23,620 nt of DNA from positions 1 through 23,620 of IMG/VR virus record IMGVR_UViG_3300032245_001447; one strand, given 5' to 3'. Both the position numbers and the translations under genes were made by a program. Within the stretch, counting starts at the first letter, position 1. The number at the start of each line of letters is the position of its first letter. Under the pieces are notes generated by a model, which saw only the letters and a program-made list of their open reading frames with translations, was not told where the DNA came from and searched no databases. The DNA is from a virus. Shown piece after piece: positions 1,809-23,620 of the stretch.

Positions 1809-4800
1809 ATGACACAAGAACAATACAAATGGCTTAAGGATAACGGCTATGATCCTACGGTCTACGACGTAGATCCTCGTGGTCGTGTTGTTAAGAGTCC
1901 TGTTGCGCCTGAGCCTGTAGCTGAGAAGATGTCTCCCCTGCGTGCAGCGGGGACTTCTTTCTTGGGCAACGTACTGCCTAGTGCGGCTGGTTTGTATGCT
2001 GGCGCACAGGCTGGTGCTCTCGGCGGCTCGATGTTTGGTCTGCCCGGCACGATCATCGGCGGCATCGGCGGCGGTCTCGCTGGCGGCTATGGCGCAGGGA
2101 AGGCTCAAGAGGCTGCTCTTGAACACTTTGCACCTGAGGCTTTGCAACAGATGGCTCAGGCTGAACAAGATCAGCCCGTCGCGTCTTATCTTGGCGGATT
2201 TGCGCCTAATGCGCTTGCGTTGAAGCCTTCGTTCGGAGGTATCAAAGGATTGACTGCTCCTTTAGGCAGCATGTCTAAGGACGCTGCACGAGCGGCTTTT
2301 ATCCCGGCGGCTGCTAATGTGGGCGTCAACGTCGCTGGCTCGACCGCGGGTCAGCTTGTCAACATGTCACAAGGCGGCGAGTTCTCTGCCCCGCGCTTTG
2401 CTGCTGATGTTGCCCTTGGAAGTCTCTTTGCTGATCCAACGAAGCTTGGTCGTCGATTTGGTCTGACTCCGCTAAAGCCTGATGTTGCTGCGGCAGAGTC
2501 TCCGATGGATCTCGCTGCGCTTCGTACTACTGCGGCTGAGTCTAGTGAGGCTGCTCGTGTGGCTGGCGAGGCTGAATCTGCTCGCATCATGGACGAGACT
2601 CGCGGACAGATGGCTGCGGGCGGAATGACTGGGCGCGAGGTTGAGTTGTTTAAGACTCGACCTGAGATGGAATGGTGGAAGCGTCCGGAATCTGAGCGCA
2701 TTGCAGACATCGAACGCACGGCTAAACAAGTTAAACAAAAACTGCCTAAAGGTATGTCAGCTGAATTGGCTGGCTTGCCCGAAGTTTATGATGTCGTTCA
2801 GAATCCTGAGAAGTTCCCTCAGTTCCTTGCGACCTCGCTTGAGGAAGCTTTGAATGCGGCGCATGAGCGTGGTGTGCAAGATAAGTTCTTGCGGCCTGAG
2901 GATGCTACGATAATGGGTCGTTATCAAGATAACCGCTTGGAGGTTATGGCGCAGAAAGAAGCTCTCAAGCCTACGCCTGAGGAAGCTGCGAAGGCTGAGG
3001 CTATTCAAGCTGAGAATGCTCGCATTGAGTCTGAACAGAATGCGGCTGAGTTGCGTAAGCTGCAGGATCTTGAAGCCGCGCAGGCTTTGAGTGATGAAGC
3101 TGCCGAGCGTTTGCAGGTTTTGAAATCGCGACGAGCCGAGTTGTTATATGCTAATAGAGGCGAGCGTCCTAATATTCGTCAAAATATTAGAGAACAAAGT
3201 GATCCAGCAATCGCTCAAGCCAAGCAAGAACTCGCTGACGCGCGTGCTATTGCTGATGATCTATACTCGCGCTTGCAACGTCCGGGTGGCGAAGGCTTAC
3301 TTAGTCAGGCTGACCTCGATGCGGCTGCTCAACTTGCGGCTCGTCGCGGCTTGAGGATCGTGCCCGCTACGCCCGAGCAACAGGCCCAAGGCATTCGCGG
3401 CGCATATGTCGTCAATCAAAATGGCGAGCGTGTTATCTACATCAATCCTCTCGCGGCCACAGCCGACACTGCGATCCACGAAATTGGTCACGATGTTTTT
3501 AAGACATCTCCCAATGAGCGGATGCAGCGTTCGCTGATGGACACCGCTGAGGGTTCTGAGGCATATCGACGCGAATACGAAGCGCGCTTGGCTGCACGGG
3601 ATAAGAATGGTAATCCTGTTCACACTGAACAACAGGCGAGAGACATTGCGCTGGAGGAAGGTCTCGTTCAAGCGTTCGGTGAGCAGCATCCTAACGTCAA
3701 ACCGGGCGAGATTCGTCAGTGGTTCAATGCGCTGAAATCGTCCGTCAAGAGCATGGTTGGGATGAAGCTCTCGCCCGAAGACGCTCTCGCTTGGATGCAC
3801 TATGCGACTACGGAAGCTGTGCCTTGGAAGGGTGTTGCTGTGGCGAAGACTGGTGGGGCTGAGGAGAGGATGCAGCGTGCTCTTGAAAATGACGCTGCTT
3901 ATCTCCGCGCAGTTGAAGCTGGTGACATGGAGACGGCGCAGCGCATGGTTAATGAGGCGGCGAAGGTGGCAGGATATAACGAAGGTCCTCTTTATCATGT
4001 GGGCCAATCATCGTGGACCGAAGCTGATCGTCCGGTATATACACAAGACTCTAAAGAACTTGCTGACAAATTCTTGAAGAGTTTGCGACGTGATTATCCT
4101 GAAGCTCAGGCTATGAAGCTATACGCACAGATGGAAAATCCTGCTGTGCAAGGCCGTGACATAGAAAGGTCGTCATTCCTAACTAGCAGTGAGTTAGGTA
4201 AAGAACAACTATCTGAGGCTATGGGTAAGGGTTTTGATTCTGTAAAAGGTTACTATGCAGGTTTAGGTGTACCAGAATATCTTACAACTAAACCAAATCA
4301 GATTAAACTTGCAGATCCAGTTACTCGTGATAATGCTGGCAACGTCATTCCATTGTCGGAACGGTTTAACAAACAGAGTAATGACATCCGTTATCAACGC
4401 TCTATCCTCTCCGAAGCCAAGACCCCAGCAGAACTCGATTATCTCGCCTCAAAGGGCGGTCCGTTCGCTGATGTGGCTACAAACGTAAAGGCTGCTTACA
4501 ACACCCGCGACTTCAAACAAGGTCAATGGTCGAGTAAGTTCTCTCTTACGAGCGCGCTTCCTGAAGAAGCCCGTGTGCGTTTGTTCAATCATCTCGCCGG
4601 GGAGTTTGATTCAGGCGTGCGCTCTACTCCTGCGAGCGATATCCGCGCAGCTTATGATCAACTCCGTAATGAGTATCTCCCGGCAATCGTAAACGACTAT
4701 AACGCACAGGGCTTTACTGTGCGCGATACCGCCGGTCAACGAGCGCGTGGCACTAATCCGACATACTTTCCGTTGCATTCCATAGCAGACGATGTTGAGC

Positions 4801-12030: not shown

Positions 12031-12045
12031 TAGGTGGTTAATTTA

Positions 12046-12080
12046 AGAGAAAAGAAAAGGCAGACTATTTCCGGTCTGCC
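12046..12080 (-). terminator. Intrinsic terminator upstream of the polymerase exonuclease gene
   Basis: On the minus strand GGCAGAC and GTCTGCC (12074-12080 and 12059-12065) form a 7-bp perfect stem around an 8-base loop, followed directly by TTTTCTTTTCTC. It is only 16 bases before the ATG of the polymerase exonuclease gene, so it should limit how much transcription from the ssDNA-binding gene reaches the polymerase. Confidence 0.75.
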
Positions 12081-12107
12081 AGCGGGCGAGTTGGGATGTA
12101 TGTCTTG

Positions 12108-12149
12108 AGGAAAGAAACCTCTTAGAAAGTCTCGCTTCTCTCTAAGAGG
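12108..12149 (-). terminator. Second hairpin with T-rich tail in the same gap
   Basis: CCTCTTAGA (12141-12149 on the minus strand) pairs perfectly with TCTAAGAGG (12118-12126) around a 14-base loop, followed by TTTCTTTCC. It resembles an intrinsic terminator with a weaker tail, in tandem with the stronger one at 12046-12080. Confidence 0.55.
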
Positions 12150-12154
12150 CGCGT

Positions 12155-12188
12155 GTCTCTGTGATAGCAACCACTCTATCTCTGAGAC
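12155..12188 (-). other. Stop-proximal hairpin after the ssDNA-binding gene
   Basis: GTCTC and GAGAC form an outer stem and GATAG and CTATC an inner stem, separated by a symmetric 3-base internal loop, with an 8-base apical loop. It begins at the base after the stop codon of the upstream gene and has no T tract. It may protect the 3' end of the abundant upstream transcript. That role is inferred. Confidence 0.5.
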
Positions 12189-13756: not shown

Positions 13757-14683
13757 TTACCAAGAAAGTGGTTCATACTTCACGATGTCGCACTCAGAGA
13801 GGAAGAGTTCGATCTGCGTGGAGTTGTCTGCAAAGCAGAGACGTTTGAACGGACAAGAAGGGCAAGAGTTAGTGAGCTTGCCACTAGGAGGCGGAAGCTT
13901 ATCGTGGGCCATAGCTTGGTTGATATGCTTAGAGAAAAGCTCGATTCTTTGTTTTAACTCGCCACCGAACTCTTCAAGCTGCTCGGCGGAGAAACTCCAA
14001 TCGGGGCCGGTGCGCCATGCTGGGGCTGGCAGAGAGATCTGGACGACAAGAGTGCGAATCACCATGCGGCGATACCACGCAGCGTTGGCGTAGTTGATAT
14101 CGTCTTTGAATATCTCATAAGCAAAACGCTGGAAGATATAGTAATAGAAAGAGAACTGCGTGTCGCCTTCGTAGCCCGCGACCGCGTCTTTGAATGCGTA
14201 CTTGCGCGTCGTCTTATAGTCTGTGATCTGAAGGATTCCCGCTGGGGTTATGCTGAGAAGATCGACAGTGCCGACATAGGCAAAGGCGGGATGCTCTACG
14301 ATAGGAAAGTTGAAGTGAAACTCAGCCCCGCGATTGTCACCGAATTTCAAAGGCGTTGGGAGTTGTTGAAGAGGTGCGGCCGTCAGGGCTTTCTTGATCT
14401 GATCTTGATCTTTGTTCGGCAGGTTCTTTTCCTTTGCTGCTTTGAACGCTTCGAGACAGGCGTCTTGCCACTTCTCTCCGCTGCGGTCGAAGGCAATGTT
14501 CTCTGCGAACTTGTGAATGATCTTGCCGACGGTGAGTGCAGTGATGTCTTCTTTAGGTTTGAGGCCAAGGAAGACTGTAAGAAACCAGCGGCGCGGACAA
14601 GCTGAGATCTTTAGGCCAGATGCGTTGATTGGGATGACGGCGGGAATGCCTTCATGAGGGAGGTCTTTGTAGGATAGTTGCAT
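13757..14683 (-). CDS. RecB/Cas4-like PD-(D/E)XK nuclease with Fe-S cysteines (308 aa)
   Basis: The PD-(D/E)XK core is visible: H57 in GKIIHKFAE, D141 in GTVDLL, D155 and K157 in ITDYKTTRK, and a QxxxY motif at Q176-Y180. Cys29 (ACPRRW) and Cys274, Cys277 and Cys283 (CPSCPFKRLC) are placed like the four ligands of the iron-sulphur cluster in Cas4 and AddB-type nucleases. Phage members act as 5'-3' or end-processing exonucleases in recombination and replication. The downstream RecA-like ATPase and ssDNA-binding gene support this. The ATG at 14683 has an A-rich leader and a candidate sigma-54 promoter 46 bases upstream. Another promoter-like site lies inside the gene at 13897-13911. Confidence 0.8.
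   Translation of the reverse strand: MQLSYKDLPHEGIPAVIPINASGLKISACPRRWFLTVFLGLKPKEDITALTVGKIIHKFAENIAFDRSGEKWQDACLEAFKAAKEKNLPNKDQDQIKKALTAAPLQQLPTPLKFGDNRGAEFHFNFPIVEHPAFAYVGTVDLLSITPAGILQITDYKTTRKYAFKDAVAGYEGDTQFSFYYYIFQRFAYEIFKDDINYANAAWYRRMVIRTLVVQISLPAPAWRTGPDWSFSAEQLEEFGGELKQRIELFSKHINQAMAHDKLPPPSGKLTNSCPSCPFKRLCFADNSTQIELFLSECDIVKYEPLSW
13897..13911 (-). promoter_or_regulatory. Sigma-54-like site inside the nuclease gene
   Basis: Minus strand TGGCCCACGATAAGC followed by TTCCGCC closely matches the intergenic elements at 8729 and 12757 and keeps GG-N10-GC spacing. It is in coding sequence, so it could be chance, but the shared TGGCCCA and AAGCT-CC parts go beyond the core. It could supply the RecA-like gene about 150 bases downstream. 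Confidence 0.4.
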
Positions 14684-14728
14684 TTTTTGATTGAGTGATT
14701 TGAGGGAGAAAAGAGAAGGGCTTTTTAG

Positions 14729-14743
14729 GCTAACCCCAAGCCA
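14729..14743 (-). promoter_or_regulatory. Candidate sigma-54 promoter for the nuclease gene
   Basis: Minus strand TGGCTTGGGGTTAGC has the GG-N10-GC core in the 65-base gap before the nuclease gene. The 5' flank GAGCTAACAGTT resembles the flanks of the sites at 8729 and 12757, and the 3' flank includes a CTCCCTC further down. Transcription would begin near 14717, giving a leader of about 34 bases. Confidence 0.5.
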
Positions 14744-14748
14744 AACTG

Positions 14749-15189
14749 TTAGCTCATCCTGCTGTTCGAGGCGGGCGCCTCACAGTCGCACTTAGCCCTT
14801 TGCTTGAGTTTATATACGCGCTGCTCGCTCTCGTCGGCCAGGCCTTGGAGGAAGTTCAGCGTGCCGCTTGAAGATCCTTTGCAACAAGAGTCGATTTCTT
14901 TTTGCACGCGGGTCTCGATCTCAAGGAAGATGTTGGGCCACTTGTCAATAGGTTCCAGATCACAGAACCATTTGGCCAGATCGGCAGCTTGAATATTTCC
15001 GCCTGAGATATCACACTTCTCGCCCAGTCCGATCATGCGCTCGATGACAGAGTCATAAGCTTCTTCGTAGGTGCCATAGAGTTCTCCAAGATACTCATGA
15101 TCCTCGAAGAACGTTGGGCCTTGAACGGTATTGTGTTTCTCGTGCGCGGTAAGTTGGGCCGCCCGGAATAATGTAGCTAAGTTATGCAT
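14749..15189 (-). CDS. Dps-like ferritin-fold protein (146 aa)
   Basis: The segment EKHNTVQGPTFFEDHE followed by LGELYGTYEEAYDSVIERMIGLG parallels the Dps signature HWNVxGPxFxxxHE...D...AER. Taking the first His as ligand one, the second His is at +12, and Asp and Glu follow that at +15 and +19, exactly the spacing of H51, H63, D78 and E82 in E. coli Dps. The equivalent of D67 is Gly. The helical C-terminus (EIETRVQKEID and FLQGLADESEQRVYKLKQR) fits a four-helix bundle. A cysteine-bearing tail follows (CDCEAPAS). Such proteins bind or oxidise iron and may protect DNA. The ATG at 15189 has an A-rich leader and follows a large stem-loop. Confidence 0.65.
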   Translation of the reverse strand: MHNLATLFRAAQLTAHEKHNTVQGPTFFEDHEYLGELYGTYEEAYDSVIERMIGLGEKCDISGGNIQAADLAKWFCDLEPIDKWPNIFLEIETRVQKEIDSCCKGSSSGTLNFLQGLADESEQRVYKLKQRAKCDCEAPASNSRMS

Positions 15190-15207: not shown

Positions 15208-15284
15208 AAGCTACTCGGCGCGTCGTCCACAGGGAAAACCATAACCTGCTGCAAGAACAGCTTGCATAACGCACCGAGTAGCTT
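15208..15284 (-). terminator. Long stem with internal hairpins: terminator or structured RNA
   Basis: Arms at 15270-15284 and 15208-15222 pair over 15 bases with a single G-U. Between them lies a 6-bp hairpin (TGCAAG/CTTGCA, 15250-15266) and a possible second short stem (CAGG/CCTG), giving a three-way-junction shape. The minus strand continues TTCTTTATC after the stem. It begins a few bases after the stop of the NUMOD1-like gene and ends just before the leader of the Dps-like gene. It most likely ends transcription, but the branched interior is more elaborate than a simple terminator needs. Confidence 0.55.
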
Positions 15285-15288
15285 AAAG

Positions 15289-15477
15289 TTATTTCTTATA
15301 CGCGAACGTAAAGCCCCGGCATTTCTGGCCGCGATACATTTGATGACAGACGGCGGCTGGATTTACCTTGAGAGCTATAGCTGCTGCCTTAGCGGAAGCA
15401 TATTCTTTTCCAGTCTCAAGACATATGACTGGCTTGCATGCATTATTACCGGGTCGTTTTTTCTTAAGTGTTTTCAC
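15289..15477 (-). CDS. Small NUMOD1-like DNA-binding protein (62 aa)
   Basis: After a basic N-terminus (KTLKKKRPGN) the protein reads KPVICLETGKEYASAKAAAIALKV, then NPAAVCHQMYRG and RGFTFAYKK. This is the pattern of NUMOD1-type modules, small DNA-binding helical repeats common in phage homing endonucleases and as stand-alone phage proteins. No nuclease domain is present. I chose the GTG at 15477, whose GTGA overlaps the stop of the preceding gene by four bases, with AAGAAG just upstream. DNA binding is inferred from the family. A large structured hairpin follows the stop. Confidence 0.6.
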   Translation of the reverse strand: MKTLKKKRPGNNACKPVICLETGKEYASAKAAAIALKVNPAAVCHQMYRGQKCRGFTFAYKK

Positions 15478-16360: not shown

Positions 16361-16561
16361 TTAAAACTCCATGAGGTGATAGACCCGCTTGCGAAGCTGG
16401 GCGACCTTGGCTCGTTTATCAAACAGATCGTGACGATAAGCGATGTCGTATCTGACCGATCCATCCTTGTCGTGGAATGAGTCGCAGTACTTTTCAAGAA
16501 AAGCGATGTGCTCCTCAGTGCGACGGATGCGCCAGTTGCGATACCATTTGAATGGGTTCAT
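16361..16561 (-). CDS. Small basic protein of unknown function (66 aa)
   Basis: The ATG at 16561 overlaps the preceding stop as ATGA. The protein is short, basic and aromatic (MNPFKWYRNWRIRRTEEHIAF, then DIAYRHDLFDKRAKVAQLRKRVYHL) and probably helical. No family is recognised. It ends three bases before the lysozyme-like gene and so shares its transcript. Confidence 0.5.
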   Translation of the reverse strand: MNPFKWYRNWRIRRTEEHIAFLEKYCDSFHDKDGSVRYDIAYRHDLFDKRAKVAQLRKRVYHLMEF

Positions 16562-16971
16562 AGAGGCGGCCAAAAGTATGGTAGGTTGTCTGGGATATTG
16601 GGGAACTTTGGACCATAGAACTCAGGTTTCTTCCGTATGAGATTACTCTGATGTGTCTTGTGTAGATAAGAGCCGAGCCAATGCGGCTGGATGATGTAGG
16701 GATATGTGAGAATCTCTTTCTCGAAATGCGGGAGGAGGTTATCAACGTAGCCACGAGCGCGGGCTTCTTGACATATTTTTATAGAGTAAAGACAAAGCCA
16801 AGCTGGATAGTCTCGCACCATCCGCACGGCGGGATGACTGCGCCAGCCCTCTGATTTACCTTGTATGGTGTTGAGGATTTGATAAGACTCGACCCTTTGT
16901 TTCATGAGGCGCTGTGTATCTAGCACGCGAGCAGACTGTTCGATGTCTGCGTAGGGTAAGAAGATTTGCAT
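16558..16971 (-). CDS. Pyrimidine-dimer DNA glycosylase family protein (137 aa)
   Basis: The protein starts MQIFLPYADIEQSARVLD and continues RLMKQRVESYQIL, GWRSHPAVRMV, YSIKICQEARARGYVDN, WLGSYLHKTHQSNLIRK and ends PYFWPP. This series (FLPY-d-sA--LD--RL-KQRvE, GW--HPav, RGy-D, H-SH-s-L-rK-P-Y, Y-WP) is the signature I know for the Pyr_excise/MSMEG_6728 family, related to T4 endonuclease V type pyrimidine-dimer glycosylases. Whether this branch excises dimers is not certain from sequence. The ATG at 16971 follows an A-rich leader without a Shine-Dalgarno site. It could repair ultraviolet damage in phage DNA. Confidence 0.75.
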   Translation of the reverse strand: MQIFLPYADIEQSARVLDTQRLMKQRVESYQILNTIQGKSEGWRSHPAVRMVRDYPAWLCLYSIKICQEARARGYVDNLLPHFEKEILTYPYIIQPHWLGSYLHKTHQSNLIRKKPEFYGPKFPNIPDNLPYFWPPL

Positions 16972-18698: not shown

Positions 18699-19538
18699 TT
18701 ATTCTCCTTTATCATATTCCGGCAATTCAATCTCCCCAAGTTCACGTTTTAGTAATAGGTTACGCAACGCACGGACATTCCCAAATGAGAACGTCTCGTC
18801 GCCGAAGTGTTCTCTCTCGCCAATAGGTGTCCAGTTTTCTTCTTCGATAATAGCGCTGGCGACACAGCGTATCTCTTGAACCCCTCGATCATACAACGAG
18901 CGAGTCTTCAAGCCGAGTTCGTTAATGCGGAAGTATAGATCCTCACGGAAAGATCCTTCCTTGACCATCTTCAACAAGTCTCTATTCGTCGCGAAGACAA
19001 ATTTACATTGAATCGGGACTGGATCGACTGCGCCGACGGGCAAGACTGTCTTATCCTGTAGGACACGCAGCAACTTAGCTTGATGCGACAGAGGCAACTC
19101 GCCTATCTCATCGAGGAAAGCAGTGCCCTTGCCGACTGCTCGGAGAAAGCCAACATCCCCGCGAGATTTAGCGCCGGTAAAAGCGCCGGGCATGTAGCCG
19201 AAGAGTTCGCTTTGGAAGAGAGTATCCGTAAGACCGGCCATGTTCATAGCCTTGAGAGGCTTGCGTTTGTGTGCAAGGATGCGAGCGATCAACTCCTTGC
19301 CTGTACCCGATGGGCCTTCGATCAGGACGTTGTATCTCTGCAAGCTTTCTTCCGCATATGTCATCGCAGAGTTGAGCATCTTCTTCGTGGCAGGATCTTG
19401 CGTGGCATAGGACGAAGCGACATTGTGGATACTGTTCTCCTTCAGCGCGTCGCCTGTGATCTTGAGGACATCTTTGCGGATGTTATCGAGAAAGCTGTCG
19501 GCGGCTGTGGTGTTAAGGACGTTTGCGTGGATGTTCAT
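18699..19538 (-). CDS. Minimal sigma-54 activator (bEBP-type AAA+ ATPase) without DNA-binding domain (279 aa)
   Basis: The protein is almost only the AAA+ core of NtrC/PspF-type activators. Walker A is GPSGTGKE (75-82), the sigma-54-contacting L1 loop SELFGYMPGAFTGA has GAFTGA at 118-123, Walker B is AFLDEIG (140-146), sensor I is FATNRDL (182-188), arginine-finger positions lie in SFREDLYFRI (R198, R204), and sensor II is GNVRALRN (253-260). It ends soon after sensor II and has no FIS-type HTH. Residues 1-50 do not look like a receiver domain. GAFTGA is diagnostic for contact with sigma-54. It is encoded 4 kb downstream of a sigma-54 homologue and in one operon with a small HTH protein. ATGA overlap couples it to the 60-residue gene. 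Confidence 0.9.
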   Translation of the reverse strand: MNIHANVLNTTAADSFLDNIRKDVLKITGDALKENSIHNVASSYATQDPATKKMLNSAMTYAEESLQRYNVLIEGPSGTGKELIARILAHKRKPLKAMNMAGLTDTLFQSELFGYMPGAFTGAKSRGDVGFLRAVGKGTAFLDEIGELPLSHQAKLLRVLQDKTVLPVGAVDPVPIQCKFVFATNRDLLKMVKEGSFREDLYFRINELGLKTRSLYDRGVQEIRCVASAIIEEENWTPIGEREHFGDETFSFGNVRALRNLLLKRELGEIELPEYDKGE

Positions 19539-22519: not shown

Positions 22520-23093
22520 AGTTTAGGATGTTTCTTGTGTCTACGATTTTTAGTACTTCTTCGAGAGGGAAATAGCAGTTGATGTTGTTGAATGCGCCTT
22601 TGAGGGCGTCGTTGAGTTGGCGAGATTTATTAAGATAGACCTCTTCGCCCTGCGAAGTGATCGCGATGGCGACCTCGGTTGCCTTCTGTCTGTTGAAGAG
22701 CTTAGCTTTAGCGAGTGCATCACTGATCATCTCTACGCGGAGATCTTCCGCTTTCTTGCGGATGTAGGATATGTCAGAGGCAAGATGGTTTGCACGAAGG
22801 ATTCTGCGGCGTTCGTCGGAGAGGTTCCAATCGGTGCTGTCCCAGATGACAGAGTAAGAGAATCCGTCTTCGTTGATTCTCTGAATATGGAGATGCTCAC
22901 TTGCGCAGTGAGCCTTAACCCAGTCGGCTGTTTCATTTGTAGCAACAATCGCATGGGCAAGATTATTCCCGCCAGTTCGGCGGATGAAATGCCCTCGCTC
23001 TGCATCGACATGACAAGAGCACGATGGGAAGAGTAATCCCCAGAGTTCTTGCGGGGTGATTTCTTTTTGGTCGTCTTCATTTTGAGGAGGCAT
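22410..23093 (-). CDS. Protein of unknown function next to the sigma-54 gene (227 aa)
   Basis: The ATG at 23093 overlaps the end of the sigma-54 gene by 17 bases, so the two are translated together. The protein has an N-terminal part with a Cys pair (FPSCSCHVDAERGHF), a middle beta region (HIQRINEDGFSYSVIWDSTD), a helical stretch (ASDISYIRKKAEDLRVEMISDALAKAKLF) and a polar, probably disordered tail. I recognise no family. Coupling to sigma-54 makes a regulatory partner possible, but nothing in the sequence shows it. The last 110 bases overlap the next gene in another frame. Confidence 0.6.
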   Translation of the reverse strand: MPPQNEDDQKEITPQELWGLLFPSCSCHVDAERGHFIRRTGGNNLAHAIVATNETADWVKAHCASEHLHIQRINEDGFSYSVIWDSTDWNLSDERRRILRANHLASDISYIRKKAEDLRVEMISDALAKAKLFNRQKATEVAIAITSQGEEVYLNKSRQLNDALKGAFNNINCYFPLEEVLKIVDTRNILNYEQSPTTEDNQRIPAPEESNGQSHQEERLDTPTAGG

Positions 23094-23620
23094 AGACTTT
23101 CCTTAAGTGCGAGGGTTGAATACCTAGTTCTGCTCTGTATTTAGCGATTGTCCGGCGAGCGATTGTGTTCTTGAGGAGTGAGACAATATCCTCATCCGAG
23201 AGAGGGCGAGACTTATCTTCTCGTGAGATGATCTCTGCGATTTGATTTTTTATTGAGAGGTTACTTTGCATGGTGTTTTGTTCATGGTTTACGATAGCAC
23301 TGGTGAAGAAAAATCTTAGTTCATATGTCCCGCGCGGAGTAGAGATGTATTTGTTACAGACGGCGCGACTCACGGTGGTTTCGTGGATCTCACAGACCGT
23401 GGCGATCTGAGCCATCGTGAGAGGCTTGAGATCTTTGATCTGGCCGCTGCGGAAGAAGTCTTGTTGATAGTCTACGATCGCATTAGACACGCGGCCGAGG
23501 GTAGACTGGCGCTGCATGATAGATCGAATGAGGAACTTTCCCATCTTTACTTTCTCACGAACGAACTCACGCTCAGCGGGCTTGAGCTTGTGGAGATAGC
23601 TTAGAACGTGATCGTTGATC
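23077..23620 (-). CDS. rpoN: Sigma-54 (RpoN) homologue, C-terminal part (partial at right edge)
   Basis: The frame is open to the window edge, so at least 180 residues are seen and the true start lies outside. The order of segments is that of RpoN: LIRSIMQRQSTLGRVSNAIV, then YQQDFFRSG (core-binding region end), then LTMAQIATVCEIHETTVSRAVCNKY and STPRGTYELRFFF, the conserved HTH region. Next is KSRPLSDEDIVSLLKN, then the RpoN box ARRTIAKYRA (consensus ARRTVAKYRE), which reads the -24 element. The turn before the RpoN box is about three residues shorter than in my recollection of typical RpoN (where QGIxx is expected). Region I, which meets the activator, is outside the window. The gene is in the phage operon, 17 bases overlapping the next gene. 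Confidence 0.92.
   Translation of the reverse strand, partial: INDHVLSYLHKLKPAEREFVREKVKMGKFLIRSIMQRQSTLGRVSNAIVDYQQDFFRSGQIKDLKPLTMAQIATVCEIHETTVSRAVCNKYISTPRGTYELRFFFTSAIVNHEQNTMQSNLSIKNQIAEIISREDKSRPLSDEDIVSLLKNTIARRTIAKYRAELGIQPSHLRKVYASSK

Follow-up and report, generated by a model that had tools for sequence, protein, structure and literature searches.

What kind of element is the branched structure that lies directly ahead of the Dps-like gene in this viral DNA, and what could it do there? The stretch analysed here, called the window, is a 23,620-base IMG/VR virus fragment, which from ca 7 kb to its right end carries genes on the minus strand, among them polymerase pieces, a ligase, Sak4, a PD-(D/E)XK exonuclease, the Dps-like gene and a helicase. 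The structure, at 15208–15284, occupies one of the larger gaps among these otherwise tightly packed genes. It begins 4 nt past the stop codon of a 62-aa ORF (15289..15477, minus strand), and a gap of 18 nt separates it from the ATG of the Dps/ferritin-like gene (14749..15189, minus strand), which is followed by the exonuclease (13757..14683, minus strand). The Dps-like product has a Pfam match (PF00210, 4.5e-5, 23.9 bits) just below the cut-off of 24.5, and matches PHROG 3636 at 2.5e-10. The 62-aa ORF has no Pfam or PHROG family, and its comparison with the 95-aa HTH ORF gave no match.

Folded as RNA of the minus strand, which is also the strand of the flanking genes, 15208..15284 is predicted to form three helices around a junction, the feature as a whole being placed by fold, model matches and covariation. 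The closing helix P1 is a 15-bp stem with one G−U pair, made up of the 5′ arm AAGCTACTCGGTGCG (15270..15284) and the 3′ arm CGCGCCGAGTAGCTT (15208..15222, placed by predicted fold and covariation), and it has 17 pairs in the predicted fold, with an extra pair between 15269 and 15223. It encloses P2, a perfect 6-bp hairpin (TGCAAG-CTGTT-CTTGCA, 15250..15266), and P3, a stem of 4–5 bp (CAGG..CCTG with the loop TTATGGTTTTC, 15230..15248, where 15245–15248 pair with 15230–15233). The junction segment J3/1, TGGACG, is found at 15224..15229. All of these are on the minus strand, as is a pyrimidine-rich tract 3′ of P1 (15196..15207). The 15-bp closing stem, the perfect 6-bp hairpin, the second small stem and the three-way junction described in the first-pass annotation are thus all present in the predicted fold.

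The minimum free energy of the minus strand is −38.8 kcal mol−1, compared to −22.4 (sd 3.0) for 200 shuffles, none of which is as good (z −5.5). It has to be noted that the plus strand folds too (−34.7, z −6.2), which means that a single sequence cannot fix the strand and that the relatives are needed for this. ARAGORN detects no tRNA or tmRNA in the window. The Rfam search proposed in the first-pass annotation, here of the whole window against Rfam 15, was negative, with 0 matches at gathering score; at E up to 10 there are five matches, all below gathering, the best being mir-5856 (22.4 of 90 bits, E 0.012). The window does have the stem and U-run of an intrinsic terminator, with TTTTCTTT at and after the stem end and TTCTTTATCT following the TT that closes P1. 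An intrinsic-terminator scan (loop 3–8), overall at chance with 18 found and 19.9 expected, did not pick up this stem.

Relatives were gathered by protein search, independently of structure, giving 5 Dps loci and sets of 54 and 59 exonuclease loci. A model (R2) built from 8 relatives, all with the form of the RNA seen in the window (type I), searched against 63 sources, finds 35 copies at E <1e-8, a single one in each record; the window copy is counted among them, and 21 are distinct. At E up to 1 it gives 54 matches, namely the 35 type I copies, 4 RNAs of another type (type II) in exonuclease leaders, and 15 antisense matches. When whole records were searched for second type I copies, 13 of 20 had a match. 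The candidate second copy in G013 scores 20 bits and, by eye, falls within a coding region; all remaining extra matches are antisense.

In the 21 distinct type I sequences, 97.7% of the cells are paired, as compared to 92.0% in shuffles and 30–51% in slid controls, and 10 of 27 pairs are changed on both sides vs 4.6 in shuffles; 0 of 500 shuffles are as high for paired cells, both-side changes or covariation score, the further pair types are not raised (21 vs 22.0 in shuffles, 442 of 500), and for these statistics, as for those of type II below, the alignments are fitted to their own models and the shuffles ignore relatedness. The covariation check across relatives suggested earlier hence reveals compensatory changes in all three helices: P1 has 97.9% of cells paired and both-side change in 4 of 16 pairs, P2 100% and 4 of 6, and P3 94.2% and 2 of 5. 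The strand is also fixed by the relatives. Their gene-sense pairs contain 47 G−U cells vs 0 A−C, with a further 13 cells T−T or T−C, which identifies the gene-sense RNA as the conserved form; with R2, the 35 gene-sense matches score 66–114 bits and antisense ones at most 21.2.

The pattern of conservation was followed in the 7 most distant relatives compared, whose exonucleases are 82–84% identical and whose fourfold sites keep 39–47%. In five of them P2 keeps 10–12 of its 12 paired positions and 5 of 5 in the loop, and the inner hairpin is better conserved than the outer stem, while P1 keeps 23–26 of 32 positions in all seven; L178 and L187 have a different P2 sequence, with 1 of 12 positions kept, that still pairs. 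J3/1 has 5 or 6 of its 6 positions unchanged in 12 of 13 relatives compared, the spacer from stem to start codon opens pyrimidine-rich in 34 of the 34 listed, and a run of at least four T's close to the end of P1 is seen in 13 of the 14 scorable sequences among the 21 distinct ones. The first-pass annotation had held that an interior varying freely inside a kept outer stem would speak against it; such freedom is seen only in the P3 loop (6–7 of 12–15 kept in the most distant relatives), whereas P2, P3 and the junction covary or are kept. Its view of a structured RNA that goes beyond a plain terminator is borne out by the fold, the covariation and the conserved branched interior. We regard it as virtually certain that the structure is a conserved RNA, and the comparison of related sequences shows a gene-sense phage RNA with a three-way junction, kept by selection between two genes of the replication/recombination region.

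We now consider which gene the RNA belongs to. In 28 of 34 relatives the exonuclease follows it immediately, and L003 (= L197) has Dps and no RNA; the idea of a Dps-specific leader was therefore rejected, Dps being a minority cargo. Pairing between GUUAUGCA and the start region of Dps, UGCAUAAC, was likewise rejected, as it is seen in the window and by eye lost in L004 and L037. The exonuclease/Dps leader is in view in 53 loci, of which 35 have type I, 4 have type II and 14 have neither. The set comprises 53 of the 59 loci plus the window, i.e. 54, one of them cut short, and leaves out L053, L202, L203 and L205–L207, where the contig ends at the exonuclease start; the type I count is the sum of 34 found by a position script (900-base limit) and L174 found by the model. 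At RNA-less loci where the upstream gene abuts the exonuclease start, the pyrimidine tract is missing too. In L042 (the same contig as L187) a small gene sits between RNA and exonuclease (2202–2535); behind it the P1 3′ arm plus TTT is repeated, a hint that cargo may be inserted by way of repeats.

Some other features of the window were noted along the way. Between Dps and the exonuclease, GGCTTGGGGTTAGCCTAAAAAGCCC (14718–14742, minus strand) resembles a small H-type pseudoknot; it is also present in Dps-bearing relatives and, in L048, ahead of a different inserted gene. A pyrimidine dimer DNA glycosylase is encoded at 16558–16971 (minus strand; Pfam PF03013, 3.7e-22), a sigma-54 activator domain at 18699–19538 (minus strand) and a sigma-54 DNA-binding domain, ended by the window edge, at 23077–23619 (minus strand). 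The last of these domains was found in 10 of 14 records searched, in open frames of 433–441 aa in the nine other than the window, and a literature search gave no recognised account of a phage-encoded sigma-54. The polymerase leader (12031–12188, minus strand) has three stems, GTCTC..GAGTGGTTG..GAGAC, CCTCTTAGA..TCTAAGAGG and GGCAGACCGG..GTCTGCC, the last before TTTTCTTTTC. All three occur in 42 of the 47 loci showing this leader, the last in 46 of 47, and terminator-like hairpins lie downstream in the leader.

Type II occurs in the polymerase leader of the clade and in the exonuclease leaders of L172, L173 and L029. Its junction has UAGAG before P2, AC after P2 and UGAACA before P1′; AUAGAG and UGAACA stand at matching junction positions despite different stems, with AUAGAA in L171. 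Four relatives (L171–L173 and L029) carry it in the exonuclease-leader slot. Where both leaders are in view, the polymerase-leader type II is present in 10 of 13 loci without an exonuclease-leader RNA vs 1 of 33 with one, a contrast that is suggestive only because many of the ten are near-identical there and relatedness is uncorrected; L192, L198 and L208 have RNA at neither leader.

A letter search of viral contigs gave 103 stretches, with a closing stem of at least 6 pairs in 17 of 52 distinct cores, one of which, L250, is doubtful; two further letter patterns gave 28 and 56 stretches. The letters in two of the search patterns were TAGAG(CG), (CG)AC and TGAACACC, or GGCATAGAG, and the invariance of the junction there is therefore partly by construction. 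The search letters have no bearing on the stems, on the loops of P2 and P3, on the exonuclease- and polymerase-leader copies found by protein, or on the first copy in L248. In the 103-stretch search the closing stems are bimodal, 25 of 62 distinct stretches having 8–11 pairs and the rest 5 or less. The split is less clean for the 56-stretch pattern, where 13 of 38 stretches have at least 8 pairs and 3 have 7, and a swapped-flank control, which mixes relatives, reaches 8 or more pairs in 16 and 14 of 200.

A second model (R3) was made from 14 type II sequences, with the exonuclease-leader members excluded; in this set 12 of 15 pairs are changed on both sides, and 3 of 500 shuffles are as high. 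Of 47 loci it matches 41, with 67 matches in all, including one that is the complement of another, and of 46 other loci it matches 28 once each, the weakest at E 0.27; pattern matches unmatched by R3 were taken as chance. The held-out exonuclease-leader RNAs score 41.7 bits (L029), 38.4 bits (L172 and L173) and 27.0 bits (L171). Across the type II set, which has 59 distinct members, pairing reaches 96.1% of cells vs 63.4% in shuffles, 291 cells are changed on both sides vs 82 (0 of 500 as high), and both-side change is seen in 14 of 15 pairs, a level attained by 22 of 500 shuffles. By eye, the P2 cap is often GAGA or GAYGN and the 3′ half of P3 often has GGUU.

Type II is present in dozens of other viral contigs, in varied surroundings. 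L229 has two copies in tandem, followed by genes for HTH_17/excisionase-like, RecT-like (Pfam just below cut-off, PHROG 561 at 6.9e-25), exonuclease VIII-like, SSB-like and ThyX proteins; HTH and RecT-like ORFs are placed in the same way, by eye, in L321, L256, L257 and L248. A promoter-like TTGAC or TTGCA, 17 nt, nAnnCT lies by eye immediately upstream of the RNA in the L229 group. The L229 exonuclease has no BLAST similarity to that of the window. In several contigs, by eye, type II lies downstream of a DnaB-like ORF and immediately follows a stop codon, and in L315 it precedes an ORF near a ParB-like ORF (by eye). In L231, a 175-kb viral contig with a weaker R3 match (24.9 bits), it ends 4 nt before a tmRNA. 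A tRNA-Gln and a tRNA-Thr are also found near this RNA and tmRNA (2969–3422).

Is the window RNA then related to type II? The two share the three-way P1/P2/P3 junction architecture in a leader, and type I and the true type II members L171–L173 and L029 occupy one orthologous exonuclease-leader slot. The outer P1 arms of L171–L173, AGCUAC/GUAGCU, are the same as in type I, and by eye the P3 loop and the GGAC of type I resemble type II. R2, a model of type I sequences alone, picks up L172/L173 (26.5 bits, E 0.0026); its scores linking the types (26.5, 22.5 and 18.8 bits) are, however, not far above antisense type I (21.2). The type II junction, UAGAG - AC - UGAACA, is absent from the window RNA, where UUA, G and UGGACG are the most that can be set against it; R3 scores this RNA at 6.8 bits gene-sense vs 6.6 antisense, and the R3 search gave no match to it. 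Since it is without the type II core, the window RNA was named derived type I. Judging from position, outer stem, P3 loop and the R2 matches on L172/L173, it is quite likely a derived relative of type II, and type I would probably be one branch of a larger phage RNA family to which type II also belongs. This family appears to be one of widespread phage RNAs without an entry in the RNA catalogue searched (Rfam 15), and in the literature searched no account was recognised as this RNA.

Beyond the clade, bacterial genomes yielded 115 candidate stretches with no exonuclease relative. Two bacterial matches to the type II letter pattern with CGACAGGG were set aside, as they look coding by eye and have no closing stem listed. 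Cultured phages gave no DNA match for 4 kb and none for the exonuclease or helicase protein; remote matches were found for a polymerase piece (3 records, 23–25%) and Sak4 (2 records, 28%). In Verrucomicrobia phage P8625, the nearest to the L229 RecT (31%), no such RNA was seen by eye in the 611 bases inspected.

What could the RNA do? The explanation that we put forward, tentatively and at somewhat below an even chance for the whole of it, is that a conserved leader RNA, of which the window has the type I branch, controls read-through in cis. It would act on the elongating transcript and set the read-through of RNA polymerase into the downstream early genes, i.e. exonuclease, Sak4 and polymerase. 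In type I, the long P1 with the U/C-rich tract would serve as an attenuator, and the branched interior would be the part recognised by RNA polymerase, a phage factor or a host factor; type II, close to transcript starts, might be more like a polymerase-modifying (put-like) element. With surroundings as different as a RecT operon, the polymerase, a DnaB neighbourhood and a tmRNA, a general role at the level of transcript or polymerase is favoured over a gene-specific sensor. Termination is unlikely to be the only role, since no more than 26 of 59 type II sequences have at least four T's in a row close to the end of P1 and the U-run thus does not characterise the family. Control of translation is equally conceivable, as no Shine–Dalgarno sequence is evident by eye before the gene starts and just 8 nt separate P1 from the ATG in L172 (= L024). 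A bolder version, possible but one we would not count on, is that the UAGAG/UGAACA RNAs are an uncatalogued, widespread phage class that modifies the host transcription complex (or self-cleaves) ahead of early operons and the tmRNA cluster, and that the window RNA is a core-less branch turned attenuator.

An unlikely reading, yet one to be taken seriously, is a riboswitch-like or autoregulatory leader that senses a ligand or protein and controls translation or transcription of the next gene, with the type II junction as its aptamer. This would agree with an unpaired junction that is conserved while the helices change freely, with the tandem copies, and with the recurrent P2 loop (by eye), which is outside the search letters. 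However, the downstream genes are diverse, the tmRNA among them, a type I P1 of 15–17 bp would form regardless of ligand, and the core is lost in type I.

We regard as rather doubtful an RNA-processing or mRNA-stability element, where the stem would be cut by host RNase III or a different nuclease, or would block it, and so part the upstream and downstream messages. P1 and P2, with 23 predicted pairs, could stack, the site is intergenic among tightly packed genes, the L231 copy is very close to the tmRNA, and presence varies irrespective of the next gene, but such an element has no obvious need for a conserved type II junction or a conserved type I P2 sequence. It is improbable that a stand-alone or 3′-UTR-derived small RNA is made that acts in trans and has P1 and the U-rich tail as its 3′ end: neither neighbour gene is constant and type I has a U/C-rich tail behind P1, but the promoter scan (consensus only) lists no site beside the window RNA, and over half of type II is without the tail. 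Very improbable is a self-cleaving, hammerhead-like three-way junction with conserved unpaired bases, for although the type II architecture and junction are of this kind, by eye its letters differ from those of the hammerhead, no Rfam family is reached at gathering score, and type I has no core. Finally, that the structure works as DNA, be it as a recombination site, a cruciform or an enhancer dyad serving the phage sigma-54 activator, is already disfavoured and scarcely credible: cargo genes adjoin the RNA, L042 has its second P1 3′ arm, P2 is also a dyad and the phage encodes a sigma-54 domain and activator, but the G−U and A−C counts mean that one strand alone pairs well, and nowhere else in the window is the P2 dyad matched with up to 1 mismatch (overall the matches are at chance, 17 found and 13.6 expected). 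A sigma-54 promoter at the RNA was rejected, as the pattern matches are at chance (20 found, 19.96 expected) and none is at the RNA.

Cis control of read-through by a leader RNA thus remains our preferred reading. A conserved junction RNA across unrelated environmental viral contigs, often before recombination or replication genes, constitutes a ready test case, either for a new sensor or catalyst, or for a further type of RNA able to reprogram RNA polymerase with no protein involved. The occurrence of type I and type II in one orthologous slot lets one ask what the loss of the core does to the RNA.

It is instructive to compare the family with known systems. With an intrinsic terminator, type I shares the stem and the U-rich run; unlike it, it is branched with a conserved interior, and over half of type II lacks a T-run of 4 near P1. 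In T7 early mRNA, RNase III sites reportedly separate the messages, and a long intergenic stem just before early-gene start codons is shared with them, although we know of no conserved three-way junction core at those sites. The purine, TPP and glutamine aptamers are three-way-junction riboswitches with a closing stem, two hairpins and a conserved junction, a layout similar to that of type II, but our scans gave no Rfam family at gathering score. The manA and wcaG families, which are included in Rfam, are absent from the scan results. In PMC2864571 they are orphan candidate structured RNAs of marine phages from metagenomes, and hence likewise metagenomic and phage-borne, but other families. 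The HK022 putRNA is, according to PMC9378689, a ca 70-nt structured phage RNA that acts in cis in an early-gene leader, with putL just downstream of the early promoter. The likeness to the present RNA lies in the structure, the location in a leader and the presumed cis action; the description there is of two stem-loops with a triplex and names no three-way junction, whereas the window family is three-helix by covariation.
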